From Cloeon dipterum (Eukaryota; Arthropoda; Insecta; Ephemeroptera; Baetidae): a stretch of DNA of 64,000 nucleotides. The notes below the pieces were generated by a model, which saw only the letters and a program-made list of their open reading frames with translations, made no database searches and was not told where the DNA came from. The translations under genes were made by a program, and so were the position numbers. Shown here one piece after another: positions 5,114 to 20,700 of this stretch (positions are counted from its first letter, which is position 1; each line of letters opens with the position of its first letter). The stretch lies in contig NC_088788.1 of NCBI RefSeq assembly GCF_949628265.1, positions 11,098,001 through 11,162,000 on the forward strand, written 5' to 3'.

Positions 5114-5689
5114 ATGGCAGTGATTGGCCGATCTGTTCGCTCCGCTCTGCGCCTCTTGGCCTCCAGACCACTCACCAAGAATGCCATAAGCCGGGGCTAC
5201 GCAGAGGGCAACGAGATGGCCTTCACCTTCGCCGCCCCCAACCAGGTGAGCCTCTGACCGTAGCTAACTTCAGTCAAATTATTCTTCCAATAAATCGATT
5301 CTGACGATGAACTCTGCTTTAAGGTGTTTTACAACGCTGCCAACGTAAGGCAGGTCGATGTCCCATCCTTCAGCGGCAGCTTTGGTATCCTTCCCAAGCA
5401 CGTACCAACCCTGGCTGTCCTGAAGCCTGGCGTGGTCACTGTCCTCGAGGCCGACGGCAGCCCCAAGCGCTTTTTTGTTTCCAGCGGCTCTGTCACCATC
5501 AATGAGGATTCCAGTGTGCAGGTCCTGGCCGAAGAGGCCGTCCCAGTCGAGCACCTGGATGCTTCCGCTGCCAGGGATGCCCTGAGCAAGGCCCAGAGCG
5601 CTCTCAGCTCTGCCTCTGGTGAAGCTGCCAAGGCCGAGGCACAGATTGCCATTGAGGTTGCTGAGGCTGTCGTGAAGGCGTGCGAGTAA
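5114..5689 (+). CDS. ATPsyndelta: ATP synthase subunit delta, mitochondrial
   Basis: Subunit delta of the F1 central stalk (homologue of bacterial epsilon), which links the gamma rotor to the c-ring in the mitochondrial inner membrane. Two exons, 5114-5245 and 5324-5689, join in phase 0 to give 165 residues (human about 168). The first roughly 30 residues are rich in Arg, Ser and Leu without acid (MAVIGRSVRSALRLLASRP), a mitochondrial presequence. Then come the conserved beta-sandwich (VRQVDVPSFSGSFGILPKHV, FFVSSGSVTINEDSSVQ) and the alpha-helical hairpin rich in Ala, Lys and Glu. It lies tail-to-tail with parkin; its AATAAA is at 5768-5773. Confidence 0.96.
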
Positions 5690-5917: not shown

Positions 5918-8280
5918 TCAGCCGAACCAGTGGCTTCCCATGCAGTCCCGTGACCAAGGGGTTTGGCACACCCAGCACCAGTGGAATCCGCACTGAGGTC
6001 TTGTGCAAATCATGTGCATACAGCCTCCTGTAAAATAGTTTTAATTATTTATTGAGGCTCTAAATTTTAAATGGTTGAATTTTTCTGGGATTAATTGAAA
6101 TCGTGTAGTACCCAAAGAGTTAAGAGGAATCACCAAGGTAAAATTTTCAACTTGAAGGATTTTGCGAGTTGAAGTCAAAAATCCAAACGGCATTATTTAA
6201 CATGGAATATGTTTTGATATCAAATTGTGCATCCTGTTTTTGCTCAAACGTAATTATTGTTTACAGGCAGGCGCTACTTGACAAAACAAACCAATCAATA
6301 AATCGTTTTTGACTTTTTGGAAAATTCCTTAGATTGAAGGCCTATCCGGGCCTATCAAAAAATTGGCTAAAATTGCGTATCAGGGGATCAGAATTATAAT
6401 TACCACATTTTAGAGACCGCTACCAGGTCATATAGTTCCATTATTTTCAGAAATAAATAAAATCAATTTACTTTTTTCAACTTGTAATTTTTCCAGAAGA
6501 AATTCACAAAAATTAATTTCACAATACTCATCTTGAGTTAAATTTGAGAATAAAATAACACTCACCATCTCTTTCTGTTGGAGTTCTGCATTTGGGACAT
6601 GGCTTAGTTGTAACCTTGATCGCCACCTTGCTTGCTTCATCCCATCGAGCCTGGATTTTTGAAAAATAATTACTGAACAATTTTATAATTTATATATACT
6701 TTACCTGAGCTGCTCTGCCAGGGTCAACACTGTAACTGGGCTGCTCAAGGGCTGTTGCGCCAATTTCCACGTCTTGGCATTCGCCAATGTGGTACCCTTG
6801 CAGACAATTTTTGCAGAACACAAACTAAAGCAATTTGAGAATGTATTTATTCTCTGGCTCTGTTAATGGAGACTGTACCCCACATCCATTGACACAAGCA
6901 ACTTTGGTGCAGCCTCCATCAACCAAGATTCCCATCCCACAGCCAGGTTGCGGGCACAGAACACCTCCGGCTTGAAGGACAAACTCCTCAGCACCAAAAC
7001 GCTGGTATTGCGCATACTGTAATTCAAAATGTACACTTTGGTTTTTCAAATAAATGTAGAAACGCACCTCATCCTCACTAAGAAGTCTGAAATGATGCGT
7101 TTCTTCAATAAACGAATTATCACATCCTGCTGGACAGGGAAGTGTGTAGCCCAGCCTTTGGTCACTGTGGAAGCGCCTCTCTCGCAAACGGGAACTGCAG
7201 TACTGCCGAAAACAGTCAAGACAAGTTACATGTCCTTCGCTGCACGGGAACACAAGAACGGTGTTGCTGAAATTTGAACAAAATTCCAAATTAATACAAA
7301 CGGAAAATAAATTTTTGCAATGCAGTACTGATCAATGTAAAAGATTTTGTATAAATTAATCTGCCATTGAAACGAATATTTATTTAAATAATTACTCTTA
7401 TCAAAAATCTACCTGACGTCAGTGCAGGCCAAGCAGGGAACTTCCTTGATATTACTTTTTATCAAATATAAAGCCACAGCCTCATCCTCTTCTCCTTGTG
7501 AAATATGATCAGCACATCGGAAGTAGAACTGACAAAACCTAAGTTGGCCATTGCACTGCGGTGACTCGCAGTGGCCCTCGACTCGATCGGGCGTGAGAAC
7601 ATCTTCCCAGCAGCAAGGATCTCTGGCCACTGTGACGGCACCACTTTTGCAGTGGCCACATCTCACTCTCAATTTCCCAGCTTTCATGCCATGACACGAC
7701 GATCCACAATATACGTAAAAATGAGCCTTGTTTTTCTCGTTCACTGCAGCACCATTGTTATTTTTTTTAGTTAAACCAGGTAGATTAATTTAGAAATTAC
7801 CAGTCTTGTTATCTTCTCTCTCTTGGAGGGTTAGCTGCAAATCAACTAGAGTTTCGCACATAGGCATAGACCCTTCTGATGGGCTGCCAGCTGACGACAT
7901 CGACAGAATTCCAATAGGTTTAGATCTGACAGCATGAAGGATGCTCTGGTCTCCCAAGTCGCAGTCCTGTAATAAAAATTTTGTAGCTTTGTTCTGAACG
8001 CAATTTGATGTCAAAGTTTTACTGCAATGATTGTCGTGTCAAGCAGCTCTTTGCCCGCAAAAATGATTTTGACTTCTTGTGGTTGCATGCCCAATTTCGG
8101 TGCGACTAGCTCTTTCACATTTTTTATGTCCATTTTTGGGTCTAAATCGACGTTGACGGACTTGCCTGTGTTGGTTTTTATGTAGATGTTGAGAGTATTT
8201 TTAATACTCTGCGTTCCTGAACTAAACATATTAAGAATTCTATCTAAAATACTCCTGAAAAACGTAAAAATAAAGCTCAT
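5918..8280 (-). CDS. park: Parkin, RBR E3 ubiquitin ligase
   Basis: PINK1-activated E3 ligase that tags damaged mitochondria for mitophagy. Eight exons: 8023-8280, 7801-7966, 7413-7743, 7068-7266, 6879-7016, 6705-6824, 6566-6650 and 5918-6027. All phases match and give 468 residues (human 465). Order: an insect-type lead ([15 protein letters not shown]), Ubl (about 30-105, with IIFAGKEL), RING0, RING1 (CLACTD, CPAGC), IBR ([19 protein letters not shown]), and RING2 with GGCMHMICT and the C-terminal HWFG. The Ser of DLGDQSILH is residue 94, aligned with human Ser65, the PINK1 site. The catalytic Cys (GGCMHM, human Cys431) sits just after the exon 7/8 junction. Parkin runs head-to-head with CF6. 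Confidence 0.97.
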
Positions 8281-8593
8281 TGCGCCTCTTTCAAGAAAAT
8301 TTAAAAACAGACGAGGAGGGCGTGGCTGCTACTACTTGAAGTTCATCATCTGGAGGGATTTGGAGAGACAGCCTTTTAAAAAATGTCACTCCTTTGTTGA
8401 TACATTGATTAAAAAATTAATTCAGCACATGATAATTAAAAAATTAAAACCAATTTTTATAGCTTTTAAGGTTGCAAATATTGATGAAAATTTAATAGAT
8501 GATATCCATTGACTAGGTTGGTCTTTTTTCGCCGACAGCCGACACTTCTGTTCGCCATCTTTAAATTTTCTTCCAAAACACTTGGTTGGAAAG
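8281..8593. promoter_or_regulatory. Shared promoter interval of parkin and ATP synthase CF6
   Basis: Parkin's ATG is at 8280 (minus). A plus-strand donor GGAAAG|GTAATG at 8593 marks a likely CF6 non-coding exon, so the start sites are probably only about 200-300 nt apart. A short GC-richer stretch lies at 8305-8340. No clear TATA element is visible. Confidence 0.5.
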
Positions 8594-8829: not shown

Positions 8830-9215
8830 ATGCTCGTCCGACAAATCCTTAGCTCCCTGAGGAGGGTCAGCAACAACGATGTTGTGAGCCGCTGCCTGTC
8901 TGTCAATGTGCCAGCCCTCGCCAAGGCGGCTGACCCTGTCCAGCAGCTTTTCATCGACAAAATTAGGGATTACGCACAGAAGAGCAAGTGAGTTTTCTGT
9001 TGATCTATCTGCAAGTGAAATTTTCTGACAAACCACTTGATAGGGCTGCCAATGGCAAACTGGTCGACGCCTCTCCTGAAATCCAGAAGGAACTGGCCGC
9101 TGAACTGGAAAAGGCCGCTAAGCAATACGGTGGTGGCCAGGGGGTAGATATGACTCAGTTCCCTTCATTCAAATTCACCGAGCCCAAGGTTGACCCCATT
9201 AGCCAGCAGTCTTAA
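8830..9215 (+). CDS. ATPsynCF6: ATP synthase coupling factor 6, mitochondrial
   Basis: Peripheral-stalk subunit F6 of mitochondrial ATP synthase, holding F1 against rotation. Two exons, 8830-8987 and 9044-9215, join in phase 2 (AA|G) to give 109 residues (human 108). The presequence is MLVRQILSSLRRVSNNDVVS. The mature part shows the family features DPVQQLFIDKIRDYAQKS, then GKLVDASPEIQKELAAELEK and a C-terminal FPSFKFTEPKVD. AATAAA at 9311-9316. It meets the Piezo-like gene tail-to-tail (stop of the latter at 9371), so the two 3'UTRs probably overlap. Confidence 0.95.
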
Positions 9216-9370: not shown

Positions 9371-12300
9371 TCAAACGATTGAGAAATTAGAAGCTCGAGC
9401 ATCAACTCCGTAAACGCCCTTTGTCCATTTTTCAAACTCGGTTGAGGAGGTGAAAATGTTGAGCATCTTTTTGCCGAGAACCAACTCCAATTCTACCTGC
9501 TGGGTGATCCGGCACTGATAAATATCCAAACAAAGCTGGAAATAACATACCTGGAATTAATCTATCTCTAATTTATAAAAAAATCTTACCTGAAGAATTT
9601 TATCCGGTGAAACCATCTCGTCAAACATCATATCAAAAGCATTTCGCTGCCAAATTTTTGCCAAGTACGTCCACAGAGACAGAATCACGCCCACATACAT
9701 TCCAATGAGCCTTGAAAAATCGCCGTTTTAGTTAAAATGGTTTTAATTTCGCTGAACACCTCACCCTCCAAATTTCTTCACAAATCCAAACAAGGGCGGG
9801 CGCGACGAGAAAAGGAAAATGTTCAGCGTCTTCGTCTTGCAGCCAAGATCGTAAGGCAGTTTGGACAGGTGCTGCTCGTATTCCTCGGTGAGACAGGAAG
9901 AGACTATCCTCCAAGCGAAGTGATCCTTGATTTGGTGGAGCCAAACGTACACAGCGTCCACAGAAGGGTCTTTATCCTTTGTTACTAAAAATTTAAAAAC
10001 AAAATTAATACCGACGTCATAATGATCACAAAATACAAACTCATTAAGCTTTTGATATTGATTGACGGTGCAGTGCGGTGGAAGTAAAGGAATTTCGTCA
10101 GCAAACTGGTGAAACCGAGTGCCATCTTAAATCCTCCAGCCTCAATCATATCTGCCAGATAATTTATCTCTCGCCTGTACAAAACAGTTGTGTGGTCGTT
10201 GAAGTCTTCATCCCCTTCCACTTCTCTCTCAACAACCCATTTTATTGTCGGACGCAGGGTGGTCACTAAAATCGTATAGTATGTACTAAATAAAACAGTT
10301 AAATTACGCAATTTTTTACTGTTCCGTAAAGTCTTTGCAATGTCACGTCTGCTCTTCGCGGGAGACCACCTTGTAATGGAAGTTGTGGGCAACTTGGCCA
10401 CCACAACATCGTCGTGTTTGAATTTATTGAGGAATGTGAAGGCAGCTCTATTTGTGGCGTAGTGATTCTTCATTTTCTCGTACATCTGGAAGGTAATGCT
10501 GTCGCAACGAGATTAATAAACGTCAGCAGAGGCATTAAAACAATGTTGCAAAATGCAAAACCCAAAAATCTTAATTCAAATTAATTTGATAAATTTTTTA
10601 ACTGATTTTTTTATAACATCGAATATCATTTCATCGTTTACTTTCAATATCAGTCGCATCTCACGCAAGGAAACTCTGGATTCTACGTTTTAGTTTTTGG
10701 TGAAATTATATTTATATGGAATTTTCCGGTTAAATCCTGATTTTTTAATTTGACCCGAAAATTTGTTGATGGCTATTTGATAATCTCTTCATATTTTTTA
10801 AGCTGTTTCTTTAGCTTTATTATTTTGGTGTCTTTAGGAAAATAGATTTAATTGTAATAATTCATTTCCAAAGTCTCCAATTGATAAAAAAAAATTATCA
10901 GCATTCAGAATATTCTTGACTTATGGTTCTACTGTAAACCATTAAAACTTTCAAACATTTAAGAGAAATTTCCAGTTTTTCTCAGAATGTAAAGATCGAT
11001 TTGCTTATATGGGCCAAATTTAATCCAAAACCTGTATTTATAAATCGATTTTGATAATTTGGTTCACTTTCTTCAAGACCCATAAATCACTAAAACGTCG
11101 AATGAAATGTTTTCTACCAATGTACATGTTTTTCATCATAAAAGCCTTCACAAATTCAATGGTTAAACAAAATTTCGAATCTGAAAAAGAGTTTTCCTAT
11201 CAGGCTGGCGAAAAGTGCTAGTTAATTTATGGCAACTAAAGTATTCCGCCCCTAAAGACGTGTTAGCCTCCATAAATTAAGAAAAAAAAATACAAGTAAC
11301 TGAGTCAGACGTTGTTAAAAACCGTTCGGGGAGCTTTTTTAAATTTGCAATCTCTTACGGGTAGAAGGTGGACACGCGTTGCTGGTACATCAGTCCAAGT
11401 ACGGGACTGCTTAGCTCGAGCTGCAAATATTTGAACGGGTTTGGGGGGGTCATTTCGTTTTCCAGCGTGTAGTAGATGAGAGGCGCGGCGATGAAAATCA
11501 GCATGGCCAGAATGGCGAAGAGGCCGACAACCGTTTTTATCTTTGTCCGTGTGCGCCGGTTCGTCAGATATTTATACTCATTGACTCTCTCGCACTGAAA
11601 ATGATGAATCTTGCCATTCTGACTGCATAATTTGAAAATAATAATACCTTCACGCGAAAGACCAAGTCGAAAATGCTCTCGATCAGCACAAACTCTTCTC
11701 TGGACAGAAGGGTTTTCGTGAAAAAGAAGTCGATTGAGCGACGCACTGGCTCCAGGAACGGAACGTTGCTGTAGCTAAATTTCCTCGGTATTGGTTTGAG
11801 GTGGAAATTAATCAAGGGCTCACATCAGAAACGCCTGTTTGTTGAGGGGACTGAAGCTTTGGCACAACACGCTCACGGCCGAGCATCGCGAGTGGCGGGT
11901 TCGCACTTGATACGCGGACAGTAGGAGGTAGATGGACTGCAGGAAGTAGTAAAGCTTCTGCAAGAATTTGTGCCCGAATCGCCTGGAAAGTCGGAAATGT
12001 CCTAAATAAATTTTTAGGGATTTCTTCACCAGGTATCAGATCACATTTTTTTTATCTAATTTACTTATGTTTGCAATGCTTGAGAATCGATTGGCTGGAA
12101 ATAAATTACAAAATCCGCACCTGTTGGTCAAGTGTGGGACAAAATGGAAGAGCCAAAAATGCAGCGTCAGGTACACGATCGCGTGGAAAACCTGTCTCGA
12201 GCGAAATGCTGCGCTGACATACAAAATCCGGTCGAGGGCCATTCCAATCAGGTGTAGAAATACCACAACTAAAAACATGACGGGGATCGTGTCTGAATCT

Positions 12301-15300
12301 AGATCAACCGCTGATGTTCCGTCATTGTCGAGCGTCTCAGCCTGGGCCATTCGTAATTTAGATTCGATCACGAGATTTTGAGCATTATTTATCTTGCGCA
12401 CTCACCGCGAACGAACTGAAGCTGCCAAGCACGATGAGGGTGCTGGCCACTTGAATGACGAAAATACTCGAGAAGACGTCCACGAATGCCACACGCGGAC
12501 ATTTCCTCTGAAGGTTCATAGGGGCATCCCACAGACCGATATTTCGGAGGATTGACCTTTGTAAATAAAATTTAAGTCTAGAAAATATTTAAAGCCATCC
12601 AAAAAGAGAAAGTGCTGGTTATGGTTACAAACGAGAATCTCAAAGGGTTGCGGTTTATTACCACCCCGATTTTCACCACTTCTGTTTCTCATTTATCAGT
12701 TATTCATTAATCATAAGAACTGCATGCAGTAATATTTTTTGTTACGTCAAAAAATAGTTTTTTAAACTTTTAGACTTGATTGAATTTTTCCAATCCTTTC
12801 CAGGGATTTCAAAACCCCGCATTTTAACGGAAAACTCGCTGCATTGCAATACAATTTTTTCGCTAGGTTTTCTGTCAATTTCTCATTTCTCATAAACAAT
12901 TGCACCAGTACAGCACTTTCAAATTAAATTTATGACGAAAAATACTTGTGCCAAATGATGGAGACCAGAAGAAAGGCCTCCAGGTACGCAGAGGAGCCTC
13001 CGAGCCGAATGATCACTTCTTGTCCAAAATCATGCGGAGCCCCCACTTTTCCAACGATCTGAGAAACGCACAAGTTAAAAATAAAAATAATAATATGTTA
13101 AAACTGCTCACGATGGCAAACATCACCAAAGTGAGGCCGTTCCAGTAGAGGTTCGAGGGTCGAGGATACTTGGTGGACGCGTAGAGCACCAAGAGCGGCA
13201 GGGGCAGCGTGTAGAAGGAGCGGTAGTGGAAGGCCTGCAGGTAGTAGATGGTGATGAAGCTGACGTACTGCGAGTGGGCGCGCATGCACGTCCAGAAGGC
13301 CTGCAGGAGCTGCACGGGCCGCGGCTTCCACAGGATGTTGTACAGATTGTTGGCCTCGTACTGCGCCCACAGCGCGTCCAGTTCTTCTTCCGTCGGCTCG
13401 CGCTGCTCGTTCGACTTGAGGCTATTTCGGTCTCCTTTGACCTCCTTTAGCCGGCTGCTCAGGCCAAATTCGATGAACCGGAAGACCAGGGTTGTGCTCC
13501 ACAGCCACACTGTCAAGCCGTAAGGCATTTGCTCTTCGCCGACGCTCTTAGGAATTTCGACAACTAGACAGAAATGCGTCAAAATACAAAACAGTCGGAA
13601 AAACCATGAATCAATATCAATATATATATTCTTGCTACTTAGTTTTTTCACCGCACTGATTTTTACAGTCGTTTTTTTTATAAATAAATGATTTTTCGAT
13701 TTTTTCCGAGCCAATATTGTAAATAAGCGGTCATAGGGGACAAAATTTGCCGCTTTGTTGAGTAATTAATTTAAAAATGCATCAGCAGAATATTTTGTCT
13801 TTTCTCATGTCTCAATTCGAGGTCACGGGCAATTAATTGGCAAATTACTAAAACTCTTTAAGTGCAACAAATAACGTGTGCATATTGGTAAAAATTAAAA
13901 AAAAATGTGCATTGCATTAAAAAACTTATAACTGAAAAAACGCCAATTTAAAGGTTTTTACATTTTTTTTGCGTTTTTCCGGATTAATGATCCAAAAAAT
14001 AGTAAGCTCTTTGCGCCTTATAAGACAGAGTAAGAAAAATTGAGAAGATCCATAGATTTGTGGAATCAGTGGCAAAAATTATATTTCTTACATTTTAAGC
14101 ATCCAAGTATGGTAGCTAACAAGTAGTTAATATTCAAATTTCGGTAAAAAGCAAAAAATTGCAGAAAACCTTGCAATATATTCTGCAATGGGGGTTTTCT
14201 GGTAAAATGCAAACCCTACCCCCAGCCGCTATCAAAATTTACCTCTGTTCATTACAGCATTCTTCAGCAGAGGTGCAGCTTGAAGATGCTCTGATGCTGA
14301 AAGCAAGAATTAATTTTTGCATAATTATATATTTTAAGGACATTTTACAAAGTCTAGATTCCATGTGCTTCTTCAGTTCAGCAGTGTAATCGGTTTTCTT
14401 TTTTATCTGCATCTGTGCCCCTTTAGCTTGGAGGAAAGTGCCCCTGTTGGAGAAAATGTATTTCGGTTCTACACTGAAATAATTAAAATTTAATACCAAT
14501 TCCGTAGATAGTGTCTCGCCTGATATTCGCGTTTAATTTGCAAAAAATAGTTGCTCTCAATCAGCCTGCGAACTAACAAGAGCAGTCCAACGTAAATGGC
14601 GTCAAAGTAGAAGGTGTCCGTAACTGCTTGGAAAAGGCCTGAAAAAATTAATGTAATAACCACAGAAAAGTCACTTTTTTAACGGAGTTTTCACGAAGAA
14701 ATATGAAAATCTCCTCACTTCGTTGTAGCAGCTTTTCTTTCGACAAGTTTTCCATGGAGAAGACGAGAAATTTGATGTTGATCGTGAGAAAAGTAAAGCC
14801 AAGTAAGAACTGGAAGCTGCGTCTGATGAGGTAAATGCTCCTCAAATAGAGTTTGAAGGAACCCTTTGCCATGATGTAACACGCCACGGTTAGGTATCCT
14901 ACGCTAAATTGGTTGGGGTTGTGAAGGCTGGTGAAAATGATGAACACTAGGGTGAGATAGGGGAAGTTGGGCAGAACGAAGCACTTTATCACGTCGAGCC
15001 ATGTGCTGAAAAAAGAAGCGAAATTTTAAAGCAGTCCACGGCGTTTGGTATAGGCAACCGTCGCATTTGACATGACGAGCAAAATGCCTACTCCGGGATC
15101 TGGCAGGCGTTCAAGAGAATTATTGATAATATTGCGAAACTCAAGAAAATCTTTGTTGTAAAATGCAAATTCCAAATCCCTAAGAATTCAGTTACAGCCA
15201 AAATTAATCTAGGGTAGCGCCGCAATTATTAGTGAAAAGTGGTTGAAAAGTTATTTCCGAGACTGGATAAAACTACCTCGCAAATTAAATAACTCGAATA

Positions 15301-17253
15301 AGACTCTTAAACAAAAGTGAAACAAAAAGTGAATAAATTTTTGTTTGTATTTTTTGTTTTGTTATGAATTATGAAATACCTGTGATTAGCAGCTAATCGA
15401 GCACCTGCCGATAATTCATCTGAATTGCATGGTGGGCGACTGTTATGTTCATAAATATATATTTTCTTCGAAAAAGTTAGAATGCTTTTCAAATTGCTAG
15501 GACTACTGTCTTCCCTACTGCTTGAAAATGTCATGTTAGATAGATCTCAAACGAGAGGAATCGAAATACATGCCAAGAAAAGTGATTAAGCGCTGTAAAT
15601 TTTGGCGGGAATAGATAAATTTGAATTCGAAATGTGGCAAGGTCCTCTTCTGATTTTTGCACTGTCGGAAAATCGTTAAATCTAAAAATTTTTATTGTAA
15701 ATTCTAATTTTCAGCTGTTACTCTGTATCAATCCACTTTAATAATAACACTCACTCTTGCGTCTGCATAAAGTCGTCAACCTCAATTTTGAAGTCAGGGT
15801 CGTCAAAATTGCGCCACTGCTCGGTGTTTTTGCCGCCGTATTTTTCCCAATGCCCGTTTAATACCCAGATTTGTCTACTAATCATCAGTGTGACAAAATA
15901 GTTCCCTGGGAATAAATTATCTTTGTAAAATTAAATTTGGAAAAAAATATTAATACAAATCATATCAAAACTCGTAATGAATTTCTTGATAATCACGACT
16001 TGCAGAGATCCTGGCAGGAAAGCTTGCATCATGTCCCGCACCAGGGAGATTGATTGTTCTAATAAAAGCATTTTCCTTATTATTAAATTATTTAAAAAAT
16101 AATTTGTAGCACCTGTTGTTGAATGGAATGGTTTCTCACTAGTCTCCACGATGTATTTGAATACGAGATACATTCCCACCTGTGCCCTGACAAATGGCCA
16201 AAATTTGCGCATCGAGGACCTCGGCAGCACCATCAGCCAGAGCATGATGGACAGACCCACGTCTAACACGTTGATTCCGATGCACAGCTGCATTGCAATG
16301 GAGAACCAGCAAATCTGAATTATAATTGCCATTATGAAGTGTATCCCTGTTTTCCTCTGCAATAATTGATCGGAATACCGCAACGCCGAATTTGTAGAAG
16401 ACGAAATTGATCATGTATTTGCAGAACTCCCTGCAGCCCAAGTCTGCGTGTCTGCGTTGTATGGTTGGGAAAAGAACGCACATCCGGTTGGCACGGACAA
16501 CGTCTAATTCCTGCATTGCGCAACTCAGGAAGATCAGCATCAGTGTCACTATCAGGGGTGTCAATTGAAAGGGAGTAAAATAAAAAATTCTGGCACGAAC
16601 GGAATGAGTTGAGAATTTGCTGGGATTCTTCAAAGGTCCAAATTTCAGTTTTTGCTTTGTTGAGGTGCGTCAAGGCATCAATCACGTCCTCCTAAAATTT
16701 TCATTTAATTTTTTTTCCCGTCAAAAGATACACCAGAAACCGTCTCATTAGTTTTAAAGTCATCGTTGTTGAAAATTGGCTTGAATTTGAGAAACATCAT
16801 TGCAGAGCCCAGGTAAGCACCCATTATCTTGAGCAGAACATTCTGGACGGTGTTTCCGACAAAAATGGCAGCGATGGCAAGGGCAAACAGAGGAATATTC
16901 ATTTGATATACCTGTAAAAAGCTCTCGTTCGAGTCACTAGGCTATAATTTAAATAATCTCATTTGAATTACGTGCAAACAACAAAAGGCAGCCACGGCCA
17001 AAAGCGCTATGGCACGGTGGTGGTTTGCGTATGTGATGGCGACGATCGTTTCAAGGTACCAATTGATGCGGAACAGGGCCTTGCTTATGTCCTCTTTGGA
17101 GTGCTGGCTTGCAAAAGAGCGGAGGTTATTGAAAATGGATTGGGACCGCATGGGCTGTTTTGCAGGTCCAGCCGAAGGTGGTGCCTTTCGTTCATCCTTC
17201 AGGAAGTATGTCCATGCTTCCGAGTCTTTGCTTGAGGCTGGAGCTGGTTTCAT
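9371..17253 (-). CDS. Short, divergent Piezo-like mechanosensitive channel
   Basis: Piezo-family protein: trimeric mechanically gated cation channels. About 22 exons join by phase to roughly 1,390 residues; canonical Piezos are about 2,500. Family landmarks in order: FYKFGVAICW (near 16390-16300); TWLDVIKCFVLPNF and FSVGYL (15005 on); YFLQIKREYQARHYL followed by a charged helix (beam-like, 14620-14250); LPLPLLVLYASTKYPRP (13200); SILRNIGLWD (12540); HFWLFHFVPHLTNRRFGHKF and LLLSAYQVR (12120-11900); a cap region (11400-9760); LIGMYVGVILSLW (pore helix region, 9710); and the end LDIYQCRITQQVELEL...FEKWT. The N-terminal blade repeats are missing: POLE begins 478 nt upstream on the same strand. 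The start is uncertain; the first in-frame ATG is at 17253, but the frame is open to about 17385. Confidence 0.85.
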
Positions 17254-17730: not shown

Positions 17731-20700
17731 CTACCTAGTGGTAGCCCACTCCATGGTTTCAAACAGGATAGACATTTTAAAAGTTTGGGCTAATGATGAC
17801 AGGTTGTACACGTATTTCCCAAACTGTTTGGGGTCCTGCAAGGTGATGAATGGCGAAGCGCAGGCACACCTCAACGGCATATTCTCCATTTTCACCTGTC
17901 GGCACCTGGAGCACTGCAGGTCTTGCAAATTGTATGAAATCATCCGTTTGTTGAAATGTTCAATTAGCAGAAACTCGACTTCAGTGGGCGTGATTCCTCG
18001 TCTGCATCCGGGACACTCCCAAGGCAACCTTAAGCAGTGTTAAGAGATTTACAAAATATTTTTGAAAGCAAACACTCACGATTTGTCTTCTGGATCTTCA
18101 AGGTCCTGCCACAAACAATTCTTCACTAAGTCCAGGTCGAAGCACAAGCTGCAATTGTGACAGAGGACGTCTGACAAGACTACAGAATCACATGGGTCTT
18201 TCCACTCGGCTTGGTCGCTGAATTCACTGACGCCAATCAGCCTTAGCATGTTCCGCCTAAGAGCACCAACCTGCAATCAGATAATTGTGATGAATGAAAA
18301 TTATGGATTAAGTGATCTTTTTTTATCAAGCACAGGACTGAAATCTAGAGGTCACAGCAGCACAATTTCGAAAGTGAAGTTTGATAGAGCTTAAGAAAGG
18401 CAAATGGTCAATTGTTTCTCCCACTTTTATATTTTTCTGGCGGATTACTGAGACCTACATATATTAAAATCAAATGAAGTTACAAGTTACGCAATTACAA
18501 AGAAGCTAAATCACAAAATAATTATTAATAAATTCTGCATATTAGTTTACCTCTATCTGGACTGTGCTGTCCAATTCCAGCACTTTACAAATCGCCTTTG
18601 TGAACTCCAAAGCTGGAGACCCGAGCTCACTGTTCATCGTCGTCAGGTAATTGGCTTCCTTACCCTTGAAGCGGCCTAAGTTTCCAGGAAGCTTTCTGTT
18701 GAGCTGGTCGATAATGCTGGGGAACGTTTTCGTTTTAATTCAAACCCAAATTTCAACAAATTTAAACTTACTGGTAGAGTTTCTGCCCCAGGTCACCACT
18801 GATAAGACTCTTGGCGTAATCCGCTGCCGATTGCTGGACAGAACCAAGAGGGGTGGCTTGCGACATGGTCCTTTTGCGAACCGGAGTGTCCTCTTGGCCA
18901 ACCCTGCTCACCTGGGCCTCCAGGAGCTTCATGAACGTGGCGCTCACGTAGCCAGCGACAAGCGCGTTGAAGTTCTCTCTGCAGCCTGCCTCGTTGGGCA
19001 GCCCCATGGCCAGACTCCACTCCATCTCGATTTCAGGCTCTTCTGAGGCTTCACCATCACTGCCCTCTTCGTCGCCTTCCTCATCTTCTTCGATTTCGTC
19101 CATGCCTCGCTGGCTCTTGACAGGGGATTTCTGCATTATGCTTTGCTCCTCCATCATGTCGTCGGTCACTTTGCCTTTCACTCCAGCGTAGTTTGTCTGC
19201 AAATGGTTATAAGTTAAAAATTAAGAATAAACCCTTCTGAGAAATTGAAATTTGTAAACCAATTGTAGTTTTAATTTCCGATTTCCCCTTGAGATTAAAA
19301 GGTTGATGAGTTGATGGCCATGAAATAAAACTTACCGGTCCTTGCCACAAAAGGTACTGCCAGCAGTCCTTGAACTTGACGTCGACGCAGTGAAAGAGTT
19401 CCTTGTTTGAGATGCTATCGACCACAAAATTGGTGTAGGTTACAGCATCCACGATATTCGTTTTTTTGGTGCTGATGATGATTCTGTTGAGGTTTGCGAA
19501 TACAACTGAGCTGCCCATGCGTCGAAACTCAGCCACAAGCTAGGAAGGAAAATATTCGTGAAAGAAATCCGTAAAAAATCTACCAGGAAATTTACCTGCA
19601 AAAACAGCTTCTTCGAGAGGAGCTGGATTGCCTGCCGCAAAGCAGGGTCATAAAGCAACGTGTGGGGAGAGCAGAGCCAACTGCAAACAAATTATATGAG
19701 CTCTTGTGTAACAAAGAATCGCGTGTTCAAACATACTGGTAGAAGTGAACCAGCTGGACGTCAGAGAAAACATTTTTGTGTACAATACAGTCTCTCAGCC
19801 AGCCAGCGACCATGTTTTTCATAATTCGCATTGCACCACTCGAGGTTGACGTTTCGCTAGAGACCGAGGCAGCTCCCCCAACAGAACTGCTTGCACCTGC
19901 CAAGGAACTCACGGAAACTGGTTGAGCTCTGTCAAAAGCGACACTCGATCCAGTTCCTGAAATATGTCACACATAAATTATTGAATTTAAATAATCTACT
20001 ATAAATTGATCAAACCTTCAATATCGTTGATATGCTCTGATTGGACAACAGCTCCAATTGTAATAGACTGCAGGCTCAAGTCCATGCACACGGTGGTGTA
20101 GCAGCCAGGATTGTTGACCGTGATAGACATGACATCCTCATTTGAAGCCATCATTCTGTTCAAAGTTTAGACGATGATTAATTTTAACTTCAATCAAGAA
20201 AATTTAACATTTAATTACTTTTCAAGCACAGGTTCATTCATTGTGATTAAAAAAGTACCACCTAAATTCTTACATGTAATCATCAGCTTCCTTGCCGCCC
20301 AAATCAGGAGTTTCATAGTTTGAGCACCAGAGAATGAAGTTGTTCCTCAGCAAGTGCCTCGAAAACATGAGATCAGTGGCAAAAAGCGCCGCGTCACTGT
20401 CAATGGCTGGCAGGTTGCCGAGCGGCAGGTGCAAGTACCTGCACTGCCGCGTTCGCACCTCTAGCGCCATTGGCATGTCCAAGTAGCGCTTCAGCATTGC
20501 ACGGGTGCCAAGGCGCTGCCAGTCGAGTCGAGTCAGCATCTCGTCCGACTCTGCGTAATTAGCGCCTGGCGTCTGCGTCTGAAGCTGCACCACGGGGAAC
20601 TCAGACAAGCCAGGCATCATGGTCATGATGTCAGACAAATCTGAAGGTTTTAAGAATTGGAACATTTTAATTTATTTTATTGGGAATTGTATTACTCAGG

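Follow-up and report, generated by a model that had tools for sequence, protein, structure and literature searches.

Canonical Piezo channels, such as Piezo1, Piezo2 and fly Piezo, are single chains of about 2,500-2,800 amino acids with one order of parts: blade units, anchor, cap, inner helix and C-terminal domain. According to a review, both the copy number and the sequence of Piezo have changed strikingly little across animals (PMC11526382), and a locust paper states that most invertebrate genomes have a single Piezo (PMC13383693). Short Piezos and a second insect Piezo are already known. The latter, Drosophila Piezo-like (pzl, CG45783), is likewise a second, divergent Piezo-family gene; the passage describing it (PMC8996152) mentions no split. 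Short forms of PEZO-1 in Caenorhabditis elegans come from one full-length gene through alternative starts (PMC7340503), whereas the genes described here are separate. A further likeness is artificial: human PIEZO1 was divided so that each subunit consisted of two reassembling chains (Bae et al. 2016, PMC4786117). In that work, residues 1-1591 and 1592-2521 gave a near-normal channel when co-expressed, neither part alone gave current, and the N-terminal part seemingly drew the C-terminal part to membranes. The engineered cut, at residue 1591, falls in a disordered linker further along the chain, whereas the break reported here falls between the blade units THU4 and THU5. Among the titles and abstract openings listed by searches of open-licence papers, none described a natural Piezo split into two genes, which does not prove that such a split is unpublished. 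In Cloeon dipterum the canonical order of parts was found in one complete Piezo and again, distributed over two genes on two chromosomes, in a second, divergent set of sequences.

The window analysed was a 64-kb stretch of contig C3 (11098001-11162000), and the genome searched comprised 190 Mb in 10 contigs, with five large ones of 33-43 Mb. Codon and splice-site scoring with hand-picked hints yielded a minus-strand gene of 23 exons (17253-16972 to 9535-9371) encoding 1,409 amino acids, MKPAPASS...SNFSIV, hereafter the C-half. A preliminary description of this DNA had given about 1,390 residues for 17253-9371, and the start and stop codons of our model are identical. In-frame stops were forbidden in building this model and that of its counterpart described below, and the openness of both frames is partly by construction. 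At the exon level, open reading frames between 16410 and 9985 on the minus strand gave Pfam matches to Piezo domains, some under the curated cut-offs. In the spliced protein, Piezo_THU9_anchor (E 3.3e-53) and Piezo_cap (3-297 of 298, E 8.6e-30) scored far above their cut-offs, and matches to Piezo_TM25-28 and THU_Piezo1 stayed under theirs both in single exons and in the spliced model. Searching the PDB with phmmer retrieved 15 distinct Piezo sequences at E <= 0.001 (best 3.6e-52). The window gene is thereby confirmed by homology as the C-terminal half of a Piezo, with a probable THU5 followed by THU6-9, anchor, cap and C-terminal domain, and the earlier assignment of the segment from the FYKFG element to the C-terminal domain stands. 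The same description held that the N-terminal blade is missing and that there is no local room for it. Indeed, Pfam did not find the N-terminal blade domain PF24871 in the protein (it is present alone on contig C4), and the open reading frame of the POLE zinc finger (PF22912), ending at 17731, lies 478 nt upstream of the C-half start codon, as had been reported, with an AATAAA between them.

Features of the C-half gene and its upstream neighbour (window positions)
Feature	Position	Strand	Basis
Piezo C-terminal-half gene (C-half)	9371..17253	-	Own splice and codon model; Pfam THU9_anchor, cap; 15 PDB Piezos
First coding exon	16972..17253	-	ATG preceded by in-frame stop; intron at residue 95, phase 0, common to canonical Piezo
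FYKFG blade unit (THU6) exons	16140..16548	-	phmmer: 9w7x 941-1040 (E 4.4e-5)
TM25-28 blade unit (THU7) exons, into beam	14497..15005	-	Pfam PF15917, under cut-off
THU8-region exon	13112..13563	-	Pfam PF23188, under cut-off
THU9, anchor and outer helix exons	11359..12556	-	Pfam PF24874, 1-237 of 238
Main cap exon	10041..10498	-	Pfam PF12166
Distal cap and inner helix exons, including pore motif MMFDE	9590..9984	-	Alignment to Piezo1 IMFEE
Last exon: C-terminal domain LCLDIYQCRITQQVELELVLGKKML, stop	9371..9535	-	Gene model, alignment to Piezo1
POLE 3' end, tandem upstream neighbour, gene boundary	17731..18039	-	Pfam zf-DPOE (PF22912), E 4.3e-13

Whole-genome family searches located the full-length Piezo that the preliminary description had proposed to look for. 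It is a single complete gene on contig C5 (12.796-12.815 Mb) with TM1-24, TM25-28, anchor and cap, modelled at about 2,776 amino acids with an uncertain first exon and uncertain linker exons. PDB entry 9w7x, which we take to be fly Piezo, was the closest to its N-terminal part at 461 bits; the highest-scoring Piezo1 entry reached 342. The Piezo_TM1-24 profile matched C4 and C5 only, and the anchor and cap profiles matched C3 and C5 only. The C4 match belongs to a minus-strand gene (30969929-30967129), hereafter the N-half, with an ATG, 11 exons, 621 amino acids, its own stop and an AATAAA about 200 nt beyond. Piezo_TM1-24 was its only Pfam match (E 1.7e-28), and its protein matched 9w7x over 197-308 and over 423-537; a third match, reaching 724, was weak. 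By these similarities the N-half is the N-terminal blade, THU1-4, alone. None of the PDB matches to either half carried the name Pzl. Protein searches of the genome at E <= 0.1, which score only the best candidates and could let a very diverged extra copy escape, placed 11 of the 12 N-half matches on C4 and 1 on C5, and of the 24 C-half matches 19 on C3, 4 on C5 and 1 on C1. The C1 match (E 0.0016) was considered as a fourth Piezo and rejected as non-coding; its frames were broken by stops and no Piezo-like model could be made. In an intron of the N-half, at C4 30968080-30968310, an open repeat-rich stretch of TGAGTCTCACCGTGAG-like units had been called an exon by the gene finder. Third-position GC was 0.618 in the C-half and 0.759 in the N-half, as if the two had different sequence environments or codon bias.

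The pore module of the C-half resembles that of canonical Piezos, with some departures. The Piezo1 motif MFEE, presumably pore-lining, is MFDE in the C-half. The C-terminal domain LCLDIYQCRITQQVELELVLGKKML could be aligned to Piezo1; it had been called divergent, and alignment of TQQVELELVLGKKML with TRELELEEELYAKL confirms the motif. At the position of mouse E2133 the C-half has a proline, with a glutamate one position earlier, and the C5 Piezo keeps the glutamate in the alignment. One study reports that E2133 sets conductance and selectivity and is conserved in mouse and fly Piezos (PMC4445471). The substitution by proline, a further difference from the canonical channel, may reflect a change in permeation or a slip in the alignment. 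The THU6 exons also gave a weaker phmmer match to Piezo1 971-1054 (E 0.0073). Within the gene model, splice scores were near or below zero at the donors 16741, 16601, 15972, 14349 and 10041, and the codon score was near zero in three exons (-0.01 in the cap exon). In both halves the in-frame codon score exceeded that of the other five frames. AlphaFold prediction of the cap exon alone gave a mean pLDDT of 41.8 and a pTM of 0.27, too low to be informative.

The two halves were compared with the C5 Piezo, with which both share intron positions. Identity was 27.1% over 591 residues for the N-half and 28.6% over 1,323 residues for the C-half, and the two are thus about equally diverged. Counting an intron as matched when it fell within two alignment columns and had the same phase, 5 of 10 N-half introns and 12 of 22 C-half introns lay at the place and phase of a C5 intron. 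In 5,000 random placements the means were 0.26 and 0.49, respectively, and the maxima 3 and 6. Matched introns flank the break closely, at N-half residues 493 and 542 and at the first C-half intron; the last N-half intron (residue 589) is eight columns off a C5 intron of equal phase. Of the 36 hydrophobic segments of the C5 Piezo, an aligned hydrophobic segment was found for 13 of 14 in the N-terminal part and 17 of 22 in the C-terminal part; a plain hydropathy scan found 12 segments in the N-half and 15 in the C-half. The pieces meet at the THU4/THU5 linker. Each gives an open spliced frame homologous to Piezo and was found in a single copy, and the two are complementary with no unit missing, the THU1 and THU5 ends being weak by sequence.

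These weak ends were examined further. The C-half starts about 230 residues N-terminal of FYKFG, a correction to the preliminary description, which had recognised a Piezo C-terminal part from that element on. A diverged THU5 is probably present at the start of the C-half because the introns at residues 95 and 182 coincide with canonical Piezo introns. The first 195 residues were assigned to THU5 mainly from these two introns and hydrophobicity, and similarity to PDB sequences starts near residue 196 (phmmer). Against the C5 Piezo, the score of the THU5 region was reached by 6 of 500 shuffles. The first exon alone was not significant against the expected C5 region (200 of 500 shuffles), and its best match across the whole C5 Piezo was elsewhere, at 1169-1216. 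A genome search with Piezo_TM25-28 gave matches on C5 only and none on C3. The first 160 residues of the N-half matched C5 weakly (37 of 500 shuffles). At its other end, N-half residues 590-604 align ungapped to C5 818-832, a score that 5 of 1,000 shuffles reached against C5 741-850 and 172 of 1,000 reached against the entire C5 Piezo. This alignment raised the idea of a cut within THU5, which was set aside because the evidence for it is only positional.

The explanation we favour, by a modest leaning, is that the window gene and the C4 gene are one Piezo-like paralogue broken in two, whose products may reassemble. An ancestral Piezo-like gene would have undergone one fission, leaving the N-half on C4 and the C-half in the window. 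With its pore module complete, the C-half would supply the trimer and ion path, and we infer, with less certainty, that it trimerises through cap and pore. Each blade might then be completed by an N-half binding to a C-half where THU4 meets THU5, and membrane tension could flatten this six-chain assembly and open the pore as in Piezo. By analogy with split human PIEZO1, which reassembles, a rejoining of natural halves at this joint appears physically plausible. The evidence speaks more clearly on how the genes are arranged than on how the channel works. Similar pieces could also remain from two paralogues truncated independently; by a rough estimate, made without a test, random end loss in two paralogues of about 2,700 residues would bring the ends within about 60 residues in a few per cent of cases.

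The strong rival to a split channel, unlikely in our judgement, is that the C-half forms a working short-bladed Piezo trimer by itself, the N-half being a modulator or a membrane protein in its own right. An in-frame stop precedes the C-half's own ATG, and the protein contains the entire pore module. The solved 'isoform k' (9uox, 1,686 amino acids), which we take to be from C. elegans, matches the C-half anchor region and, like the C-half, has its N-terminal boundary just before THU5: C5 802-957 aligns with isoform k 51-203 and, weakly, C5 832 with C-half residue 81, and ungapped extrapolation places both starts near C5 752. N-terminally shorter pezo-1 isoforms with a common C-terminus are likewise described (PMC7340503). 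Against a stand-alone channel, the complementary and equally diverged N-half would be left unaccounted for, and human PIEZO1 1592-2521, which is shorter than the C-half, gave no current alone (PMC4786117). The stubby trimer imagined in the preliminary description is upheld in so far as the protein lacks the blade, and qualified in that it may be one chain of two, with the blade encoded on C4.

Three further readings appear much less probable. Inter-chromosomal trans-splicing would join the C4 and window loci into one full-length mRNA. An in-frame junction is conceivable between GACAAG/GTCAAG, a donor-like sequence of the final C4 exon (score 2.6, phase 0), and window 17103, where an acceptor-like sequence scores 4.6 and, lying 150 nt from the ATG, is also in phase 0. 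We regard this as very improbable; the C4 gene ends in a stop and an AATAAA, the C-half begins with an ATG of its own, 23 acceptor-like sites occur in the stretch, and a third of random pairs would be in frame. Decay of one or both halves into functionless remnants, to which we give equally little weight, would fit the weak splice scores, the near-zero codon score in three C-half exons and the loss of E2133, and because the models avoid stops their open frames are partly built in. Even at about 28% identity to the C5 Piezo, however, the 23 exons of one gene and the 11 of the other can be spliced without meeting a stop, the reading frame scores best of six in both genes, and the pore motif and C-terminal domain are kept. 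Finally, an intact paralogue could have been torn by misjoins on C3 and C4; only a single assembly was used, and the homologous position of the two breaks is what a tear would produce. Such an error, which we consider the least probable of the readings, is countered by the absence of N bases from the 64-kb window, from 40 kb surrounding the C4 gene and from 50 kb surrounding the C5 Piezo, and each piece has its own start or stop. The sequence that carries the C-half also carries POLE, 478 nt upstream, and beyond the N-half there is a possible convergent gene, part of a merged model, with no Pfam match for the piece tested.

As a tentative idea, to which we give somewhat less than an even chance, the divided paralogue would be a naturally split Piezo channel with two genes and two chains per subunit: a pore stub with five blade units would pair with a separately encoded, separately regulated four-unit blade extension, and the animal could tune force sensitivity by the share of stubs that are extended. 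If the split is true, the natural cut at THU4/THU5 would mark a boundary between mechanical modules, the mayfly would provide a native system for the role of the outer blade in force sensing without engineered truncations, and evolution would have used what split PIEZO1 showed artificially.

Other observations concern the surrounding sequence. A repeat common to the two break sites was sought by blastn of the first 30 kb of the window against 40 kb of C4, and none of the four matches lies at the break. The best of them, 56 bases at 80% between window 15551-15605, in the C-half intron separating exons 7 and 8, and C4 near 30961800, suggests a dispersed repeat. TTAGG, which usually forms arthropod telomeres, was nowhere found five times in a row in the whole genome; the assembly may lack the telomeres, or they may be built differently. 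Five exon matches to the odorant-receptor family 7tm_6, which marks insects, were present in the genome, and a test for odorant-binding proteins gave one weak match. On the minus strand of the window, a CMAS-kind methyltransferase gene lies at 1456-2205 (PF02353, E 4.3e-14, at 1867-2163), which we take to encode phosphoethanolamine N-methyltransferase, and a Parkin-like gene at 6825-8328 has the RING-type domain PF17976 in 7409-7789; with its ubiquitin-like and further RING exons it is presumably Parkin. On the plus strand, the gene for ATP synthase coupling factor 6 (about 8970-9210; PF05511, E 3.4e-26) is convergent with the C-half, with about 160 nt between its end and the C-half stop codon. 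With the gene for the ATP synthase delta subunit at 5294-5689 (plus strand; PF02823 and PF21335), two ATP synthase subunit genes thus lie within about 4 kb.
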